DNA from: Halovivax ruber XH-70
GTDB taxonomy: Archaea; Halobacteriota; Halobacteria; Halobacteriales; Natrialbaceae
DNA length: 64,000 bases
Direction of reading: 5' to 3'
NCBI RefSeq assembly: GCF_000328525.1
Contig: NC_019964.1
Span: forward strand, 2,790,001 to 2,854,000
Part shown: piece after piece, positions 95-32,532 of the stretch
How the letters are laid out: every line of letters begins with the position of its first letter
How positions within the stretch are numbered: position 1 is the stretch's first letter
Notes under the pieces: model-generated
The model's database searches: none
Told to the model about the DNA's origin: nothing
What the model saw: only the letters and a program-made list of their open reading frames with translations
Position numbers and translations under genes: made by a program

Positions 95-1948
95 TCACCC
101 GTCGGTGTCCCAGACGTCCGCCAGCGGGCTCGACTGTTCTCGGCGGGAGCGTCGTGTCGGGGAGTCAGTCGAATCGCTCTCGGTGCCGGGCGGCGAGCGG
201 TCGGGTGTCGGCGCGGGGGTCGCACTCGCGTCGCCGACTGCGGCCGATGGCTCGAACGCCGGGAGGTCCGGCGTCGACATGCGATCGACCTGTTCGGCGA
301 ACCAGTCGGGCATGTCGGATCGAGCGCGGTCGAAACAATCGAGCAGGCTCTCGTCGGCGAGGTAGGTCGCCCCGTAGTCGTCGGGGGCACGGACGACGCG
401 ACCGCAGGCCTGCATGACCGTTCGGAGCGTCGCCCGGTAGTACCAGGCCCACTGTCCCTCGGCGAGGCGGTGGGCCACCCGGGAGTCACTGGTGTTCTGG
501 AACGGGGCCTTGCAGAGGACCTGCCAGCGCGCGAGGTCGCCCTTCAGATCGAGCGCTTCCTCCATCTTCACCGAGAGGAAGACGTCGGACTCGTCCGAGG
601 CTTTCCAGGCGTTCAGGGCGGCGTCGCGGCCGTCGCGATCGTGCGTTCGGACCCGGGCACCGACGCCGAAATCGGAGAGTGTGTCCGCGAGTTGCTCCTG
701 GATGTCGTAGGAGTGGGCGTGAACGATCCCCTTCTCGTCGGGATGGGCCGCCATGATCCGGACGATGGCGCGGGCGATCTTCGGGAGCGTCTCGTCGCGG
801 TGCTCGTAGGTCATCTTCCCCTGCGTGACGTCGTATAGCGGCCGGTTCTCGACGGGGAAGGTGTGGCCGACATCGACAAGCGCGACGTCGTCGGGGTCGA
901 GGCCGACCTGTCGACAGAACGCGTCCTTGTTGAGAATCGTCGCCGAGAGCAAGGCGAACTTGTTCCCCCGATCCCAGACCGTGTGCGCGAGGTAGCGCTC
1001 GGGGTCCATCGGCTTGATCGTCACCGGCCCGCCTGCGGGTTCGTCGCCCGCGCCGTCCGACGGCCCGACAGCCTCGTCGCTCGTCGACGCGTCGGCCGGC
1101 GGGGTAGTCTGGTCGACCAGCCACGTGGTCGGACTCTGGGGATCGCGATAGTCGGAGACGAACCAGTCGAGTTCGCCGATGAGTTCCTGCAGGCGGTCGC
1201 GCTCGCGGACCCCTGCGGGCGTGAGTTGTTCCTGGGCGAGCAACTCGTCCTTGCGGCGGGTACAGACCTCGGCGAGGTTCTCGGCGTAGGTGGCCGCGCG
1301 CTCGATCGGATCGGTGTCGGCGGCGTCCAGATCTGGCACCCGAAGGTCGTCCCAGAACGGGATCGTCCGCGGGCCGAGGTGGATCGTCGCGTACATCTCG
1401 GCCCACTCGGCGAGGCCGTGGGCTTCGTCGATGACGACGACGTCGCGCTTGCGAAAGACCTCGCTGCCCGCGGTCTGCATGAAGTACGCGAGCGTCATCG
1501 CCGCGATCTCGCGATTGGAGGCGATGGCGCGGTCGGAGAAGTACGGACAGCGGTGCTTGACGTCGCAGTCGTAGCCGCGCTCGCGCACACAGGGCGCCTG
1601 GTTCACCGGCGTACCCTCTTCGCCGGGGAGGATACAGCTGTAGTTGCCCTTCCCGCGGATGATGTTGAGGTCGGCCAGCAGGTCGTCCTCGGCGACGTCG
1701 TCTAACTGAGAGACCTGCGGCGTGGTGTAGTAGGCGCCGCTGGCCTCGCTCGGCTCGGCCTCCTCGACGGTGCGCGCACAGCCGGCTATCGCGCGAGCGA
1801 GCAGGGACTTGCCGCTGCCCGTCGGTGCGCGCACGAAGACCACGTCGTTGTCGGCCGCGAACGCGTCGCGAATGTCCTGGAGGGCTCGTTCCTGATTCCC
1901 GCGGTAACTCGGGGCGGGAAAGGCGTCGAAGATCCGCGCTGGTTGCAC
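95..1948 (-). CDS. XPD/DinG-like Fe-S superfamily 2 DNA helicase
   Basis: This is a 617-residue ATP-dependent DNA helicase of the Rad3/XPD/DinG group. Walker A (APTGSGKS) is at residues 41-48 and the DEAH box (VVIDEAH) at about 171-177. Between them four cysteines, C105, C120, C128 and C134, have the spacing of the Fe-S cluster that this family uses to separate strands. The C-terminal part contains a motif VI-like segment (MQACGRVVRAPDDYG). The final ~60 residues are a low-complexity Pro/Ser/Thr/Asp tail. I chose a GTG start at 1946-1948 because a TTTTAG box lies about 27-32 bp upstream, as in leaderless haloarchaeal genes, and because similarity-like sequence begins there. The frame stays open to an ATG at 2062, but that extension is low-complexity. 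The likely role is DNA repair; the substrate is not shown by the sequence. Confidence 0.88.
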   Translation of the reverse strand: MQPARIFDAFPAPSYRGNQERALQDIRDAFAADNDVVFVRAPTGSGKSLLARAIAGCARTVEEAEPSEASGAYYTTPQVSQLDDVAEDDLLADLNIIRGKGNYSCILPGEEGTPVNQAPCVRERGYDCDVKHRCPYFSDRAIASNREIAAMTLAYFMQTAGSEVFRKRDVVVIDEAHGLAEWAEMYATIHLGPRTIPFWDDLRVPDLDAADTDPIERAATYAENLAEVCTRRKDELLAQEQLTPAGVRERDRLQELIGELDWFVSDYRDPQSPTTWLVDQTTPPADASTSDEAVGPSDGAGDEPAGGPVTIKPMDPERYLAHTVWDRGNKFALLSATILNKDAFCRQVGLDPDDVALVDVGHTFPVENRPLYDVTQGKMTYEHRDETLPKIARAIVRIMAAHPDEKGIVHAHSYDIQEQLADTLSDFGVGARVRTHDRDGRDAALNAWKASDESDVFLSVKMEEALDLKGDLARWQVLCKAPFQNTSDSRVAHRLAEGQWAWYYRATLRTVMQACGRVVRAPDDYGATYLADESLLDCFDRARSDMPDWFAEQVDRMSTPDLPAFEPSAAVGDASATPAPTPDRSPPGTESDSTDSPTRRSRREQSSPLADVWDTDG

Positions 1949-2119
1949 TGTCAGAGAGGGAGGCCGGGGTCGTCCTAAAACTGACGACTGTCCACGAACG
2001 GTGACAGTCGAAAACGGTTTCCTGGCTGTCGATTTCGATCCAGCGTCCGGCGAAACCACCACCTACTGCGCAGTAACGAGCCGATTACGAATATCGAACC
2101 GGCCATCGAAGTCGAGTGC

Positions 2120-2209
2120 GGAAGGGTCGCTCAGCGGCAAGAGCACCGCGGTGCCATCCGGCCCGCGGCGGCCGAGAGGCCGAGTGGCGTTCAAATCCCA
2201 CCCCTTCCG
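2120..2209 (+). tRNA. tRNA-like gene or tRNA fossil, anticodon not resolvable
   Basis: A 90-nt stretch folds partly as a class II tRNA. It has a perfect 7-bp acceptor stem (ggaaggg / cccttcc), T at position 8, a perfect 4-bp D stem (gctc / gagc) around agcggcaa, a long variable-arm hairpin (cggcc-gaga-ggccg) and a canonical T loop (ttcaaat) with discriminator G. The anticodon arm is abnormal: the only good stem (ccgcg / cgcgg) encloses 13 nt instead of 7, and the T stem has mismatches. I therefore cannot assign an isotype. A trailer like those behind the two certain tRNA genes in this window follows it, which supports a tRNA origin. It may be a decayed tRNA or one with an unusual insertion. 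Confidence 0.4.
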
Positions 2210-2600
2210 CTTCTCTGAGCGCTAGCGAAGGAAGCGAAGACTGTGGGATTTGAGCAGACGAGTCGCAGCCCGGGACGCGAACGAAGTGAGCGACCCGGAC
2301 CGTCTCGGCGCGTTCAAATCCCACCCCTTCCGTTGCGCGGTTCGAGGACCGCAGGTCCGAGAACCGCGATACTGCGAACGGGGAGCGTAGCGATCCGTGA
2401 GCCGCGAGGCCGAGTGATAGCGAGGCCTCGTGTACCCGAAGCAACGCAGTGCTCGGGAAACGGCGCGGCTCACGAACGCGCTCCACGAAACCGTCCAAAG
2501 AACACGCACCCTGTCACGAGCGAAGACGTGCGCACCCTGTCGACGTGCGACTGCACGTCTCATTTCCCCCCACATAGCTTTCGACCGCCGAGGGGATAAC
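2210..2600. repeat. tRNA-trailer repeat region with serial hairpins
   Basis: No gene is supported between the tRNA-like sequence and the cysteine-cluster gene. The segment begins with a hairpin, then at about 2240-2252 an inverted copy of the preceding T-arm (gtgggatttgag). A block gagtcgcagcccgg at 2259-2272 also occurs behind tRNA-Asn. A direct copy of the T-arm and acceptor end (gcgttcaaatcccaccccttc) recurs at about 2309-2331. Several stem-loops follow whose loops are variants of gagcgtagcga or gaacgaagtga, for example ccggg/cccgg, ggttc/gaacc, acgg/ccgt and gaggcc/ggcctc. Confidence 0.6.
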
Positions 2601-2651
2601 TCGCTCTCCGGGCGGGGTGAGAGTTTTTGTCATCGGGGTCGATGGTCGCGT

Positions 2652-3647
2652 ATGGAAGTGCAGTGTCGCAACTGCGCCGGCTGCTGTCTCGACTGGCGGC
2701 CGCTGATCGACGAGAGCGAATCCAATGAGACCGACGAGAGCGAGGGCGACGACGAGACGAAATCGACCGCGTCGGCGGCCGACGACGGCCAGCGTGGGCC
2801 GTTCCCGTCGTTAGACGGCGTGGCCAACCTCGTGCCGCTAGCGCGAGACGAGGTCAGGGCGTTCGTCGACGCCGGGCTGGGCGACGTGCTGACACCGCGG
2901 CTGTGGGCGGCTGGCGAAGCCGATCCACACGTCGACGTCGGCGAACGGCGGGTCGCGGCCGTGCACGGACGACCGGCCTTCTTCATCGGGTTGCGAAAAT
3001 CCCCGAAACCGGTGGCCCCGTTCGGACGAACCGAGGCTGCCGTGGTCCCGGCCTGTGTTTTCCTCGACCCGACGACGTTGCAGTGTCGGATTCACGAGGA
3101 CGAACTGTATCCGGCCGAGTGTGGCGCCTATCCGGCACACAACGTCGCGCTCGATCAGCCGACCGAGTGCGAGCGAGTCGAAGCGGCGACGGGTGAGCGA
3201 CGGCTCCTGTCGACCGACGGCGCGGCGGCGATTTCCGGTGAGGACGGACCGCTCTTCGGCCCACAGGCGGTCGGCGGCAAGGTGTTCTGCCATCCGGATC
3301 CGAGCGCAATCGAGGGGGCGGTCGACCGGATCGCACGCGGCGAGCCGACCGCGGCCGACCGGGCCGAGTTCGTCGCCGTCGCCGCGGCATCGAGTCCCGG
3401 CACGCTGGCGCACTCCGAACCGCACTACGAGCAAGCGCGCGAGAAGACCCTCGAGACGACCTCGTGGGCTGGTTCGGCGATCGACGAGTGGGAACGGCTG
3501 GCCGCCGCAGAGCGAGATGGGGAATCGGACGCCGGTTCGAACCTGTCCCCCGCACTCGCGGAGCAGCTCGAAGTCGATCGCGGTGCTCCGGAGACACCGG
3601 GCTGGGAGGATGGCGGAGAGACGACCGCCGACGAGACGGAACCCTGA
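2652..3647 (+). CDS. YkgJ/UPF0153-type cysteine-cluster protein
   Basis: The product is 331 residues and begins with the signature cysteine cluster C5-x2-C8-x2-C11-C12 (MEVQCRNCAGCC), typical of the YkgJ/CxxCxxCC family, proposed to bind zinc or an Fe-S cluster. Further conserved-looking cysteines follow in PACVFLDPTTLQCRIHEDELYP and ECGAYP, also family hallmarks. An acidic insert lies at about residues 20-50 and the last ~70 residues are acidic and poorly conserved in appearance. The ATG at 2652 places the Cys cluster at the very N terminus, as is usual; the frame is open far upstream through the repeat region but that part is not protein-like. The biochemical function of the family is not established. 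Confidence 0.85.
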   Translation: MEVQCRNCAGCCLDWRPLIDESESNETDESEGDDETKSTASAADDGQRGPFPSLDGVANLVPLARDEVRAFVDAGLGDVLTPRLWAAGEADPHVDVGERRVAAVHGRPAFFIGLRKSPKPVAPFGRTEAAVVPACVFLDPTTLQCRIHEDELYPAECGAYPAHNVALDQPTECERVEAATGERRLLSTDGAAAISGEDGPLFGPQAVGGKVFCHPDPSAIEGAVDRIARGEPTAADRAEFVAVAAASSPGTLAHSEPHYEQAREKTLETTSWAGSAIDEWERLAAAERDGESDAGSNLSPALAEQLEVDRGAPETPGWEDGGETTADETEP

Positions 3648-3755
3648 CGGTCCAGAGAGTGCGTCAGACCCCGATGGAGCCGGAAACTGGAGACGATAAC
3701 TGGAGCCGGCAACTACGCTCAGTGCGCCGCACTACGGCAGCCGGGAAAAACGGAC

Positions 3756-3929
3756 TCAGTTGGATTTGATCTCCTGGAACTGGTTCAACAGCGCTTCTGC
3801 GGAGTCGCCGGAGTCGTACTCGACCTGCCCGTGGTAGATCGTCCGTTCGTCGTCGAAGTCCGTATCGACCGTCGACGCTTGCTTCTCACGACGTTCGTGT
3901 TCGTCGTCGTCATAGGCACCCATTGACAT
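3756..3929 (-). CDS. Small acidic haloarchaeal protein (DUF5786-like)
   Basis: A 57-residue very acidic protein beginning MSMGAYDDDEHERRE and ending LLNQFQEIKSN. It matches, as far as I can recognise by eye, the small haloarchaeal family DUF5786, which also starts MSMGAYD. I took the ATG at 3927-3929; an internal ATG two codons later is possible. It is convergent with the cysteine-cluster gene and divergent from the next gene. No function is known to me. Confidence 0.75.
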   Translation of the reverse strand: MSMGAYDDDEHERREKQASTVDTDFDDERTIYHGQVEYDSGDSAEALLNQFQEIKSN

Positions 3930-4117
3930 GGTAGGTATGAACACTGTAGGGCGGTATTCGATATCAATGTAACGGTCGTTCACGACAGTCCGGGCGCTGG
4001 ATGAAATCGAAAGCCAGGCCAACAGGGGTCAACATGCAGGTTCAACCCGAGTTGGTGGGCAACCGGACGACCGTGAGAAAGCGAAGACGTATGAATCTCA
4101 CCGGCGTAGTTTTGATC

Positions 4118-5125
4118 GTGGCACGGCCGCTTCGCTTTCGATACTCGCCCAACGCCTGGAGCCCGGGGCGCGTCGACCGGCAGGTTCTCCAGCCCCTCCA
4201 GGAGAACATCGGCGCCAGCGACGTCGACACCCGATTCGACGTCGGTGGCGAGTGGCGAACCTACCGCTTCGAGATGGACAACGGGGACGTCGCCCTCTTC
4301 GCCAGCAGCGACGACGAGGCCTACTGGATGGGCAACACGGAGACCCCACAGGCGCTCTGGCGAACGAACAAGATCGGCTGGGACGATGCCCCGTATCGTA
4401 TCGCCCGCTGGGCGAGACGCGAACTCCTCGAGACGCTCTACGACGAGGACCCGTGGCTCGAATCGTACCCGCACCTCTCGTGGTTCTTCCTCCCCGTATT
4501 CATGTCGAAGGACGGTCGCGATTCGACCCGGACGTTCTTTCGCGAGTACGACGGCGGCTTCCCCGATACCGACCGCGACACCGTCCTCCAGTACTTCGAA
4601 GACCTCCTCCGGCCGGGCACGCTCGATCCCTACCGACACACGATGGCCGGGAAACTCGGAACGAGCGAACACGTCGACGACGTTCGGATGAGCGCCGCCA
4701 TGGCGGAGTTCATCGCCGCCAGGATCCTCACGGACGCCGGCTACGGCCTCACGCCGGAGATCGAGGTGACGACTGGTCACTCGCTCGACTTCCGCGCCGA
4801 GGGTGACGAGACCAACGTCCTCGTCGAGGTGACGCGACCGCAGGCACCCTCGACGCGCGCCGCATCGGGGCCGATCGCCGCGATCCGGGATACCGTCCAG
4901 ACGAAGACCAGCGGCCAGCTCTCGAAACACGGTGGTGGGGCCGTCCTCTTCGTCGACTGCTCGTCGTTCCCCGACGACGCCTGGGCCGCCATCCGCGGCG
5001 AACGCCCCGACGTCCGTCACCGACCGGCCGTCGTCTATCGAGCCCGACCGTCGGGACATGTCGAGGGGTACCGCCGGGGATCGGTTCCAATCGATCTCGC
5101 GCCGGCGGTCGACTTCGTCGGCTGA
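4118..5125 (+). CDS. Haloarchaeal conserved protein (DUF5784-like), possible nuclease fold
   Basis: A 335-residue protein starting VARPLRFRYSP. I recognise it tentatively as the haloarchaeal family DUF5784. Its C-terminal third contains an HTGH-like segment and the series AEFIAARILTDAGYG, then SLDFRAEGDE, then VLVEVTRP. This resembles the E...D...(D/E)-x-(K/T) order of the PD-(D/E)XK nuclease fold, with T in place of the usual lysine. That is an inference from pattern only. The GTG at 4118 is preferred because the MARPLRF-like start looks family-typical; an in-frame ATG at 4091 is the alternative. Confidence 0.72.
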   Translation: MARPLRFRYSPNAWSPGRVDRQVLQPLQENIGASDVDTRFDVGGEWRTYRFEMDNGDVALFASSDDEAYWMGNTETPQALWRTNKIGWDDAPYRIARWARRELLETLYDEDPWLESYPHLSWFFLPVFMSKDGRDSTRTFFREYDGGFPDTDRDTVLQYFEDLLRPGTLDPYRHTMAGKLGTSEHVDDVRMSAAMAEFIAARILTDAGYGLTPEIEVTTGHSLDFRAEGDETNVLVEVTRPQAPSTRAASGPIAAIRDTVQTKTSGQLSKHGGGAVLFVDCSSFPDDAWAAIRGERPDVRHRPAVVYRARPSGHVEGYRRGSVPIDLAPAVDFVG

Positions 5126-5147
5126 GCGACGATCGGACCCGTTGCAG

Positions 5148-5345
5148 CTATCCTGCCGATTCGTGACCGGGAGCTGGCGTGGCTAGCACGGCGAGCCACA
5201 GCCCGACGATGCCGGCCAATCCCAGTACGAGGCCAGCGTAACTGATCGGGTTCAGGCCGCCGCCGATGAACAGACCGGCGACCAGCACGACCATTCCGAG
5301 GAGTAAGGCGAGCGTCGGAAGCTGAAAGCCAACGGACGGAGCCAT
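5148..5345 (-). CDS. Small membrane protein with two helices
   Basis: A 65-residue hydrophobic protein (MAPSVGFQLPTLALLLGMVV...) with two predicted membrane helices at about residues 10-30 and 37-57, joined by a short Gly/Asn/Pro loop (GGGLNPISYAG), and a short polar C terminus. I started it at the ATG at 5343-5345 rather than eight codons upstream because the extra residues are not hydrophobic. It is convergent with the preceding gene. No specific family was recognised. Confidence 0.65.
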   Translation of the reverse strand: MAPSVGFQLPTLALLLGMVVLVAGLFIGGGLNPISYAGLVLGLAGIVGLWLAVLATPAPGHESAG

Positions 5346-5420
5346 AGCGATCGCACCACGACCAGCCACAAAAGCGTGCGCTGCGGCCGATCAGCGTCGG
5401 AAGTCGCGAGAGAAACCGCC

Positions 5421-5708
5421 TCAGAAAGAGAGTTGCTGGGGCTGGTAGACGCTCCCCGGTGGATTCGGATCCCGGTCGCTGTAGCCGACGCGGCCGACCG
5501 CCTTGTCGCTCAGCGCGCTCTGGAGCGTGAGCCGGAATTCGTCGGGCGACTCGAACGTCTCCCGGGATATTCGGCCGAGCGCGTCGCCGACCGTCTCGGT
5601 GCCGTTCGGGAGTTCGATCGGCTGGTCGCCGTACGCAGCGATCAGTTCGTCCGTCGTCGCCGGGTACTCGAGTTCGTCCGCGAGCGTGACGGTGCCGGGC
5701 AAGTGCAT
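5421..5708 (-). CDS. Small haloarchaeal protein (DUF5789-like)
   Basis: A 95-residue protein starting MHLPGTVTLADELEYPATTDELIAAYG and ending with GRVGYSDRDPNPPGSVYQPQ. The pattern of a short helical domain with 'YPAT..EL', 'F.S.DE' and 'VGRVGYSDRDP' recalls the haloarchaeal DUF5789/DUF2795-like small proteins; this is recognition by eye. A 58-bp GA microsatellite (CT on this gene's strand) lies about 54-111 bp upstream of the start, inside the likely promoter region. Confidence 0.72.
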   Translation of the reverse strand: MHLPGTVTLADELEYPATTDELIAAYGDQPIELPNGTETVGDALGRISRETFESPDEFRLTLQSALSDKAVGRVGYSDRDPNPPGSVYQPQQLSF

Positions 5709-5758
5709 TGCGACGGGATCCACACCGACCCCAACCTTAACTATTGTCCATTATAGAT

Positions 5759-5820
<62 letters not shown>

Positions 5821-5937
5821 GGCAGTCTTCACCGACCCGACAGACGGCGAGTTGCTCCAGCCTACCCACCCTGCGGTCGACACGCCATCACGTACGGAGA
5901 CCCAATGGCTTTGGCGCCAGCACGCGTCGGCACAGCC

Positions 5938-6810
5938 ATGACGGCGACGCGAACGGCGCCCTACGCCGATCTCCACGTACACACGACGCGGTCTGATGGT
6001 TCGCTCGATCCCGAAGCGGTCCCGACGGTAGCGGCGCGAGCGGGGCTCTCCGTCGTCGCCATCACGGACCACGACGTCGGGGCGCCGTTTGCGGGACCGA
6101 CGATCGAGGCCACCGAGTGGACTGATGCCGACGCCGCACCGGCTGGACCTGGCGAGACCACAGCCAGTGAGACGCCTCCTGAGGGCGCCGACGTGACACT
6201 CGTGGCCGGAATCGAACTCCGGGTCGAACCCGCCGACGGCGAGGCCGTCGACCTGCTCGGCTACGGGCTCCGACGGACGAGCGCACTCGAGTCGACGATC
6301 GATCGGATCCAGCAGAACCGACGCGAACGCGGTCGAGCGATCGTCGACTGCGTCGCGGATCGACTCGATATCGACCTCGACGTGTCGATCGACGACGGGT
6401 TCGGTCGCCCACACGTCGCGCGTGCGATCGACGACCACCCCGACACCGATCTCGACTACCAGGAGGCGTTCGACGACCTGATCGGCAGCGACGGGCCCTG
6501 TTACGTCTCGCGGGAGCTGCCGAGCTTCGAGCGCGGCCGACGACTGCTCGCCGACGCCTGCGACGTCGTCGCGCTCGCCCATCCCCTTCGCTACCGCGAC
6601 CCGAGTGCGGCGCTCGACCTGGCGAGCGAACTCGATGCCGTCGAACGCTTCTACCCCTACGGTCGGACCGTCGATACCGCGGTCGTCGAACGGGCGATCG
6701 AGCGACACGACCTGCTCGCGACCGGCGGGAGCGACGCGCACGGCGATCGGCTCGGGCTCGCCGGACTCGACCGGGCACAGTACGACCGTCTCGCCCCACC
6801 AGGCTGGTGA
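5938..6810 (+). CDS. PHP-domain metal-dependent phosphoesterase
   Basis: A 290-residue member of the PHP (polymerase and histidinol phosphatase) superfamily. The N-terminal motif DLHVHTTRSDGSLDPE gives the paired metal-binding histidines, ITDHD is the second motif, and the C-terminal GGSDAHGD completes the metal site. The middle part (ERGRAIVDCVADRLDID...GRPHVARAI) resembles the RNase AM/TrpH (5'-3' exonuclease, 3',5'-nucleotide phosphatase) branch. Activity on nucleotides or RNA ends is an inference from the family. I use the ATG at 5938, just before the conserved N terminus; an ATG at 5905 is also in frame. Confidence 0.88.
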   Translation: MTATRTAPYADLHVHTTRSDGSLDPEAVPTVAARAGLSVVAITDHDVGAPFAGPTIEATEWTDADAAPAGPGETTASETPPEGADVTLVAGIELRVEPADGEAVDLLGYGLRRTSALESTIDRIQQNRRERGRAIVDCVADRLDIDLDVSIDDGFGRPHVARAIDDHPDTDLDYQEAFDDLIGSDGPCYVSRELPSFERGRRLLADACDVVALAHPLRYRDPSAALDLASELDAVERFYPYGRTVDTAVVERAIERHDLLATGGSDAHGDRLGLAGLDRAQYDRLAPPGW

Positions 6811-23836: not shown

Positions 23837-23975
23837 TGGATCGAACGATCGTCGAACAGCCAGCGACGTCGAGACGGGTCGCTGACCAGACAGGTTGCGA
23901 TGCGCGTCGAGCGCCGATAGTCGTTTCGACGAGACGGTTGTGCTCGCTCCCGGTGGTCGCTGCGCGCACTGCCAC

Positions 23976-24055
23976 TGGTCTGCTCAAATCTCCGTGTTAG
24001 GGTTTCCTTCAGCACAGACTGCTCGCTACGCTCGCAGTGTTGTGCTGAAGAGAAA
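23976..24055 (-). repeat. Trailer of tRNA-Arg with inverted T-arm copy
   Basis: Directly 3' of tRNA-Arg on the minus strand: ttcagcaca / tgtgctgaa brackets an inner ctgc-gagcgtagcga-gcag hairpin, and the sequence then continues as an inverted copy of the tRNA's own T-arm (cggagatttgag at about 23983-23994). The inverted arms together are about 33 nt each. Further on, gcgaccaccgggagc matches the third B hairpin of the array near 16160. Confidence 0.75.
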
Positions 24056-24128
24056 CGTCCTGACGGAGATTTGAACTCCGGTCCCTGGCTCCGCAAGCCA
24101 AGAGGATAGTCCACTACCCTACCAGGAC
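24056..24128 (-). tRNA. tRNA-Arg (anticodon GCG)
   Basis: Acceptor stem gtcctgg/tcaggac with G73, D stem around ggg...tcc, anticodon stem ttggc/gccag enclosing loop ttgcgga (anticodon GCG), T stem cggag/ctccg with loop ttcaaat. All four arms pair. CCA is not encoded. It decodes CGC (and CGT). Confidence 0.95.
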
Positions 24129-29613: not shown

Positions 29614-29686
29614 GCCGAAGTAGCTCAGATGGTAGAGCACCTCGCTGTTAACGAGGTTGTCCCAGGTTCGAGTCCTGGCTTCGGCG
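29614..29686 (+). tRNA. tRNA-Asn (anticodon GTT)
   Basis: A canonical 73-nt cloverleaf: acceptor gccgaag/cttcggc with G73, D stem gctc/gagc, anticodon stem cctcg/cgagg with loop ctgttaa, T stem ccagg/cctgg with loop ttcgagt. CCA is not encoded. Confidence 0.97.
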
Positions 29687-29850
29687 TCCACTTCTCACAG
29701 TTTTCTCGTGAGGAGCGGTAGCTCCGAGCGAACTCGAGTGAGAAGCGGACGGTACAAACAGGACTCGGACACGCGAGTCGCAGCCCCGGAACGGCCGAAC
29801 GGAGCGCGGTTCGGAACGAGGTGAGAACCGCGTTGCGAACGGTGAAACCG
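29687..29850 (+). repeat. Trailer of tRNA-Asn with inverted copy of its 3' end
   Basis: Bases 29738-29770 are an imperfect inverted copy of the tRNA 3' third plus first trailer bases (29668-29698): gtgagaag and then caggactcg pair with cttctcac and cgagtcctg. Between the arms are short hairpins. After the second arm come cgcgagtcgcagccccgga, also seen behind the tRNA-like locus at 2.1 kb, and hairpins gcggttc/gaaccgc and acgg/ccgt. The rest of the 338-bp gap to the next gene, 29851-30024, holds only its promoter region. Confidence 0.75.
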
Positions 29851-30024
29851 TGAGCAGTGTGAGGACGCACGCTCGAAACGTCTCGCATCTATTCGAGTCT
29901 TGGCTTCAGAACAGTTCTTTGAACAGTGCCCAAGGAAATCTGCGCGAGCTGTCGGAGTCGCGACGGAGTTTCGAATACATCATAGTAATAAGCACTAAGT
30001 ACGGCCGAATTTCATGCACCTCTA

Positions 30025-32427: not shown

Positions 32428-32532
32428 GGGCCCTTAGCTCAGTCTGGTAAGAGCGCTCGGCTCATAACGAAGCCGGTGTCTCCGGAATCGTGGGATACCG
32501 AGTGGTCGTTGGTTCGAATCCGACAGGGCCCA
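32428..32532 (+). tRNA. Intron-containing tRNA, anticodon CAT (Ile2 or elongator Met)
   Basis: The 105-nt gene folds into a cloverleaf when about 30 nt after position 37 are removed. The acceptor stem is gggccct/agggccc with A73, the D stem gctc/gagc, the anticodon stem ctcgg/ccgag with loop ctcat-a|a, and the T stem gttgg/ccgac with loop ttcgaat. The intron, starting about acgaagccgg, carries an inner ccgg/ccgg hairpin as expected near a bulge-helix-bulge splice site. The body (gggcccttagctcag... tggtcg.tggttc.a.tcc) resembles tRNA-Ile2, whose C34 is modified to agmatidine in archaea; automatic tools would call it Met. The accessory region begins just behind it. Confidence 0.9.

Follow-up and report, generated by a model that had tools for sequence, protein, structure and literature searches.

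In Escherichia coli, the tyrT gene (the rtT RNA region) is followed by tandem, non-coding repeats of about 178 bp, each of which carries a copy of the tRNA 3' end. To our knowledge, these repeats are limited to one locus in one bacterial group, and we know of no inverted T-arm among them and of no such cassette family that extends across many tRNAs. The 3' ends of tRNA genes are usual targets of integrases, and casposons, which integrate in a Cas1-type manner, can use them too. SNJ2-type integrases use tRNA 3' ends and leave a copy of the 3' end; theirs are single insertions that carry genes. SNJ2-type haloarchaeal tRNA integrases are named in PMC8371274. The small mobile repeats of Haloquadratum, or PATEs, are non-coding elements of about 80–110 bp with inverted ends that insert into other palindromes, and their mobilisation mechanism is described as not established (PMC3119063).

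Does any of these systems account for the DNA that lies behind haloarchaeal tRNA genes? A sequence-only reading of one stretch of the Halovivax ruber chromosome had pointed to a segment in the trailer of tRNA-Asn that repeats the 3' end of this tRNA in inverted orientation, and knew of no description of such an element. No earlier description was found in the open-access literature (5.39 million papers) either; subscription journals lie mostly outside it, and an earlier note there is possible. The relevant passages of two haloarchaeal genome papers contain no description of units in tRNA tails.

The window, meaning the whole stretch of 64,000 nucleotides that was analysed, corresponds to positions 2790001–2854000 of the single 3,223,876-bp contig of H. 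ruber, and coordinates are given in window numbering unless they carry the prefix G000:C1. Behind tRNA-Asn, the window contains a unit made up of two hairpins (H1 and H2), an inverted cognate T-arm (iT) and a segment that repeats the tRNA 3' end in direct orientation (T'):

29614–29686, plus strand: tRNA-Asn(GTT), the anchor of the unit, whose positions 53–73 are the copied segment (ARAGORN; Rfam RF00005, 72.7 bits)
29687–29751, plus strand: H1 of the Asn unit, whose outer stem is formed by the first trailer bases and 29738–29751 (sequence, inverted repeat)
29759–29770, plus strand: iT of the Asn unit, which complements the T-loop and the 3' strand of the T-stem (inverted repeat, cognate test, shuffles)
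29771–29891, plus strand: H2 of the Asn unit, of the class ..GCGAGTCGCAGCCC...AACGTCTCGC.., whose tip encloses a nested hairpin module (approximately 29802–29855)
29892–29909, plus strand: T', a degenerate direct 3'-end copy of tRNA-Asn (repeat family D2, 94% over 16 nt)

The inverted repeat behind tRNA-Asn was recovered with arms at 29666–29698 and 29738–29770, which are 33 nt long and 76% complementary. Its ungapped score is 17, compared with 8.2 ± 1.3 for dinucleotide shuffles, and none of 300 shuffles scored as well. The inner part of the repeat is iT and the outer part consists of the first trailer bases; opposite the acceptor there is no match. An Rfam scan of the 64-kb window returned tRNA matches only, with no RNA family above its gathering score in the trailer.

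The same architecture had been read behind tRNA-Arg and behind a tRNA-like locus near 2.1 kb, and it recurs at both:

24056–24128, minus strand: tRNA-Arg(GCG), the anchor of the second unit (ARAGORN)
24001–24055, minus strand: H1 of the Arg(GCG) unit
23982–23995, minus strand: iT of the Arg(GCG) unit, ACGGAGATTTGAGC
23930–23981, minus strand: H2 of the Arg(GCG) unit, whose T' is lost in H. ruber and complete in the sister species
2118–2210, plus strand: degenerate tRNA-Arg(CCG), the anchor of the third unit (ARAGORN with introns allowed, interval 2120–2210)
2211–2241, plus strand: H1 of the Arg(CCG) unit
2242–2255, plus strand: iT of the Arg(CCG) unit, TGTGGGATTTGAGC, which, at positions where the two T-stem strands disagree, tracks the 3' one
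2256–2311, plus strand: H2 of the Arg(CCG) unit (match to the covariance model R1 at G000:C1:2792241–2792324, E 2.6e-6)
2312–2332, plus strand: T' of the Arg(CCG) unit, GTTCAAATCCCACCCCTTCCG

Behind tRNA-Arg(GCG) the inverted match scores 12, with 2 of 300 shuffles as good; at the 2.1-kb locus it also scores 12 (1 of 300), and the direct 3'-end copy scores 19 (0 of 300). The tRNA-Arg(CCG) at 2118–2210 has a four-base extra in its anticodon loop and a poor T-stem, as it does in the sister species, and is probably either decaying or interrupted by a tiny intron. Elsewhere in the window, tRNA-Met (32428–32532) has an intron of 30 nt (ARAGORN) and a trailer without a unit.

Is the inverted copy specific to the tRNA that precedes it? 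Over 42 tRNA genes, the inverted match is 18.57 for cognate pairings and 15.75 ± 0.39 for shuffled ones, the highest of 2000 permutations reaching 17.3, and the direct match is 29.3 for cognate and 17.2 ± 0.63 for permuted tRNAs. The inverted T-arm is cognate, recurrent and not due to chance, as the sequence-only reading had it, while the direct 3'-end copy that normally closes each unit and the tandem arrangement of units had been overlooked. The purine-rich 11-nt loops that it described belong to nested hairpin modules, and some of these modules are present at other places in the genome as well.

Arrays follow the order tRNA, H1, iT, H2, T', repeated one to five times, in non-coding units of about 105–140 bp. 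A unit consists of a T-rich start with H1, a spacer of about 6–12 nt, iT (e.g., GGGATTTGAA), H2 (e.g., TTAGACCAGTCGCGCGCAGCGAAGCGAGCACGTCTGGGCGTC) and T' (e.g., GTTCAAATCCCAGACGGAGCA), after which the next unit follows. If S stands for the 3' part of the tRNA, the pattern alternates S, loop 1, inverted S, loop 2 and S, and continues in this way. H2 is built on a conserved imperfect stem, TAGACNAGTCGC...ACGTCTNGGCGT, with about five sister classes, and iT, H2 and T' are predicted to fold as a single long hairpin. Over 30 diverse sequences, 89.5% of the cells of this hairpin are paired compared with 83.0% in shuffles, and two-sided changes are found at 12 of its 21 pairs compared with 5.8 in shuffles, a value that none of 500 shuffles reached. 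Within the H2 stem, 98% of cells are paired and G:T pairs are few (3 of 118). The commonest type of hairpin tip (66 of 219), though not a general one, is the terminal C(GNA)G loop, which has high stability in DNA. Runs of four or more T follow about 28–32% of tRNA ends and T' ends. All 42 tRNA loci of the H. ruber genome were inspected; at least one T'-ended unit stands behind 24 of the 41 surveyed tRNA genes (37 copies, the few weakest of which are remnants), and about 40% of the tRNAs have none.

The two copies of the tRNA differ in extent, as seen in 292 units, of which 249 have a recognisable iT; the units stand behind 168 tRNA genes and represent many genera. At T-stem positions 62, 63, 64 and 65, iT matches its cognate tRNA with z = 12.6, 8.0, 11.6 and 5.1, respectively, and from position 66, where the acceptor starts, matching is at background; iT ends at the boundary between T-stem and acceptor. 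Where the two T-stem strands differ, iT follows the complement of the 3' strand in 26 distinct cases and the 5' strand in 13. The alternative that iT joins the 5' T-stem strand, copied in direct orientation, to an inverted loop is disfavoured by the same 26 to 13, although not overwhelmingly. T' is 91–100% identical to the tRNA at positions 53–73 (21 nt); at positions 52–51 matching is weakly above shuffled values, and by position 50 it is at background. A one-base insertion is found in 40 of the 292 T' copies, behind several different tRNAs; with few exceptions it lies in the T-loop (TTCACAATC or TTCATAATC). Among the mismatches of iT with T', G:T is mildly enriched (0.24 versus 0.174 ± 0.02). 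The G:T tests of the H2 stem and of iT:T' contradict each other, and thus no conclusion on DNA versus RNA was drawn from them.

The position-53 edge is also met within tRNA genes. In a tRNA cluster on a plasmid of Haloarcula halophila, a class-B H2 and a short hairpin lie inside tRNA-Cys at approximately positions 53/54, and when the two sides are rejoined, the tRNA-Cys is recognised by ARAGORN. In another genome, a unit holds bases 27–53 of tRNA-Phe (26 of 27 identical), which are followed directly by hairpins and then by T'. These interruptions point to the boundary between T-stem and T-loop as the insertion place, and T' starts there too. The H. halophila cluster, at 1847–6662 of plasmid unnamed2 (record 236157–244203), contains 23 ARAGORN-called tRNA genes and adjoins genes for a TROVE-domain protein and for orc1/cdc6; at least one additional tRNA, the uncalled Cys, is interrupted at the T-loop by a unit, and further ones apparently have hairpin insertions in the T-loop.

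How widespread are these units? In a search of 84,980 species genomes, the exact motif GATTTGAANNAGACNAGTCGC was found on 88 contigs, almost all from Halobacteria, and 79 of 86 occurrences lie behind a same-strand tRNA (80 loci inspected, in named genomes). Units of H. ruber are shared with a contig of H. asiaticus. Two of the 88 contigs, a Dehalococcoidia MAG and Methanoperedens, have neither a tRNA nor a T' copy at the motif, and these occurrences were set aside as chance. R1, a covariance model of iT-H2-T' whose matches have E-values down to 1e-19, gives 29 forward matches in the H. ruber genome, all behind tRNAs. Across Halobacteria, 281 of 292 genomes have a match, as do 72 of 77 genera; eleven genomes have no R1 match, four of them none even at E 0.01. 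There were no R1 matches in about 204 other genomes sampled from the phylum, and a tRNA lies upstream at 41 of 42 R1 loci sampled in further genomes. Both of the two plasmid matches adjoin or lie within tRNA genes. The exact motif was absent from viral contigs, and phage records gave no match. A looser pattern had three matches in viral contigs, none of them near an ARAGORN tRNA; the one sequence inspected had no unit, and these matches were taken as chance.

Comparison of H. ruber with its sister species (G001) reveals that the arrays change. Units stand in the opposite order at Ser(TGA), Ser(CGA) and Lys(TTT); at Gly(CCC), there are two units in one species and one in the other, with the junction at iT; and the Cys and Phe arrays differ by units on the tRNA-proximal (leader) side. 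In other genomes, arrays of the form ABA, BCBC and AAA are found, in which units denoted by one letter are identical or nearly so. T' copies are more decayed the further they lie from the tRNA: the last copy is the worse in 50 of 89 arrays and the first in 5 of 89. Recombination would produce the same pattern of decay polarity and leader-side extra units.

Modules are also exchanged between unrelated tRNAs of one genome. Near-identical H2 modules are shared by Thr and Asp (59 nt) and by Ser and Pro (about 175 nt), with both edges at the T-loop. H1 modules have their edges at the tRNA end, as in the 32 nt that are identical behind Lys and Ser, and the tRNA flanks around such modules have only a few T alike. 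When H2 sequences were compared across genera in a nearest-neighbour test, the result was nearly flat both for tRNA and for genus or genome, and little above chance. Recombination between T copies alone would explain the changes within arrays, but not the H1 modules common to unrelated tRNAs. Module sharing and polarity alone do not tell transposition apart from gene conversion.

H2 tips can enclose a further hairpin of about 55 bp (GCGGTTCGGAACGAAGTGAGAACCGCGATGCGAACGGTGTAACCGTGAGC); this module lies at approximately 29802–29855 of the window and at Leu(TAG), Ser(CGA), Lys(TTT), Ser(GGA) and Pro(TGG), and also occurs elsewhere in the genome, for example at G000:C1:412485 and 82132. At Leu(TAG) and Ser(CGA), H. 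ruber and its sister species differ by a hairpin module of 55–56 bp in the H2 tip. The module is absent from the sister species at these two loci and so looks independently mobile; by description, such nested modules look like the small mobile repeats of Haloquadratum.

The H. ruber genome contains five TnpB-type genes and three tyrosine-recombinase genes, one of which is near an array, 2.7 kb from tRNA-Ala(GGC). The sole recognisable integrated element found is located at tRNA-Pro(GGG) (G000:C1:2076900–2096899); an integrase-family frame of 411 aa is found at 2078503, and 13 nt of the tRNA 3' end recur about 18.5 kb away from the tRNA.

How do the units compare with the systems already described? 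They resemble the tyrT repeats in being tandem repeats of a tRNA 3' end behind a tRNA gene, and are set apart from them by description. A likeness may be drawn to CRISPR arrays and casposon targets, in which the tRNA would correspond to the leader, T' to the repeat and the material in between to the inserts, with decay at the leader-distal end and, in some comparisons, extra units on the leader side. However, the inserts are recurring hairpin classes found across tRNAs and genera, and not unique, diverse spacers; the repeat, taken from the 3' end of the tRNA itself, differs from locus to locus; and no cas1 was linked to the units. Arrays of integron cassettes (attC) are similar in that tandem cassettes have an imperfect hairpin conserved by fold and not by sequence, and in that their order varies between relatives. 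Unlike integron cassettes, the units are free of genes, have no integron-integrase locus and recur at most tRNA genes; the ends of their hairpin are T-loop sequence, which is distinct from the attC consensus.

Among haloarchaeal elements, SNJ2-type insertions differ from the units, which have a 21-nt copy starting at position 53 and no genes; the core at Pro(GGG) in H. ruber is 13 nt, at 61–73. The passages on PATEs describe no tie to tRNAs and no cognate tRNA copies (PMC3119063), and the units are set apart from them by description. An absence of target duplication, expected of IS200/IS605-type elements and PATEs, does not hold for the units, which bring a 21-nt copy of the tRNA 3' end. Like MITEs and other small mobile repeats, they are short and non-coding, have terminal inverted repeats (iT and T') around H2 and are found at many tRNA loci; unlike those of MITEs, the terminal repeats are not constant across the family, as the T-loop part alone is constant and the remainder is cognate to the host tRNA. 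Each of the nearest known kinds differs from the units in at least one defining feature, save for the general label of a small non-coding repeat with inverted ends.

We infer that the cassettes act at the level of DNA, with entry or recombination at 53/54. They would insert at, or recombine through, the T-loop boundary of tRNA genes; the tRNA would retain an intact 3' end, the displaced or duplicated 3' end would stay behind as T', and older T' copies would decay further from the tRNA. The match between iT and T' might be upheld by mutual correction of the palindrome arms, through a cruciform or template switch, or alternatively the hairpin itself may be recognised by a putative enzyme. The arrays would then be anchored at tRNAs and built from a non-coding hairpin cassette that duplicates or moves as DNA, an interpretation to which we assign about an even chance. 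Most likely they are in the main a family of modules that propagate themselves, with tRNA 3' ends as safe harbours, and are not required for tRNA maturation; the conservation of the H2 motif across the class suggests some constraint beyond selfish spread. More tentatively, and with well under an even chance, haloarchaea may possess an enzyme-driven system akin to CRISPR or integrons that writes gene-free hairpin cassettes beside tRNAs; the tRNA would serve as leader and the tRNA 3' end as repeat, the T-arm being re-copied in both orientations and the cassettes shuffled within and between arrays.

Two ideas had been offered by the sequence-only reading, a trailer that folds back on the T-arm as RNA and the scar of a repeated insertion mechanism. 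Judged from the sequences compared here, the scar fits better, because of the 21-nt direct copies edged at 53, the tandem units, their decay, the swaps, the sharing of modules and the insertions at 53/54. Were the trailer an RNA element, a read-through transcript would form the iT-H2-T' hairpin, or iT would fold onto the T-arm; this would tune 3' end formation, sequester T' or act as antisense to the T-arm, and selection for pairing would keep iT and T'. The hairpin is indeed conserved with covariation, the complementarity of iT stops exactly where the T-arm meets the acceptor, G:T is mildly enriched among iT:T' mismatches as RNA pairing would give, and T-runs stand at a share of tRNA and T' ends. 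In predicted folds, moreover, trailers are far more stable than shuffles (z −3.95 for Asn and −5.45 for Arg), and the T-arm pairs with the trailer in 10 of 23 folds of tRNA plus unit, including that of tRNA-Asn. Yet those T-runs, where they directly follow the tRNA, would halt much of the transcription, the tRNAs without a T'-ended unit would have to do without the element, and pairing requires no 21-nt direct copy that includes the acceptor strand. H2 classes are not tied to their tRNA, and the shuffling by which unit number and order come to vary between sister species is left unexplained. An RNA role of this kind is unlikely to be what the arrays are for. Could they instead be the product of neutral recombination, with neither a mobile element nor a function? 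Unequal crossing-over or replication slippage would duplicate the 3' end in tandem, template-switch (quasi-palindrome) correction would write the inverted copies, and gene conversion through the T-loop would spread H1 and H2. Unequal crossing-over between T copies in one array could yield the same changes as cassette movement, and several observations suit it: whole units are in exact tandem repeat, the Gly(CCC) difference has its junctions at iT or T, the T-loop GTTCAAATC, common to most tRNAs, is a possible microhomology, and the terminal T' is the most degenerate, which is what a homogenising array would show at its edge. What it explains poorly are the H1 modules that unrelated tRNAs have in common although their flanks match by only a few T, the insertions at 53/54 within tRNAs, and the class-wide H2 motif and classes, which have no match in the other archaea of the phylum even though these have tRNA genes too; we regard such an origin as doubtful.

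Two further explanations carry less weight. Proviruses or plasmids that integrated at tRNAs might have decayed to their att flanks; T' does look like a regenerated 3' end, and a tyrosine-recombinase gene (G000:C1:869814–870374) lies 2.7 kb downstream of the unit-bearing tRNA-Ala(GGC). However, no second 3'-end copy was found within 60 kb of that Ala integrase, the units carry no genes, and, as to viruses and plasmids, the exact motif is absent from viral contigs, phage records have no match and both plasmid matches are at tRNA genes. The element at tRNA-Pro(GGG) lacks a unit at both of its ends, and its core of 13 nt covers positions 61–73, whereas T' begins at 53; on this comparison integrase remnants were rejected as the main explanation, being highly improbable. 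As for chance, GC-rich trailers could by composition yield inverted matches to a conserved T-loop, and since T-loops are alike among tRNAs, any inverted T-loop will match many of them; this is refuted by the permutation and shuffle tests and by the covariance-model matches behind tRNAs of one class, which leave it virtually no probability.

In nearly every haloarchaeal genome, the arrays constitute a conserved feature that immediately follows most of the tRNA genes, which rank among the most studied genes in biology, and the open-access literature yielded no description of it. If the cassettes move, haloarchaea own an unrecognised way of writing DNA beside tRNA genes. If the trailers act as RNA, there is an extra, unrecognised layer in the tRNA 3' processing of a whole class. 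On either reading, the units account for part of the intergenic repeats of haloarchaea, and they are directly testable in genetically tractable strains.
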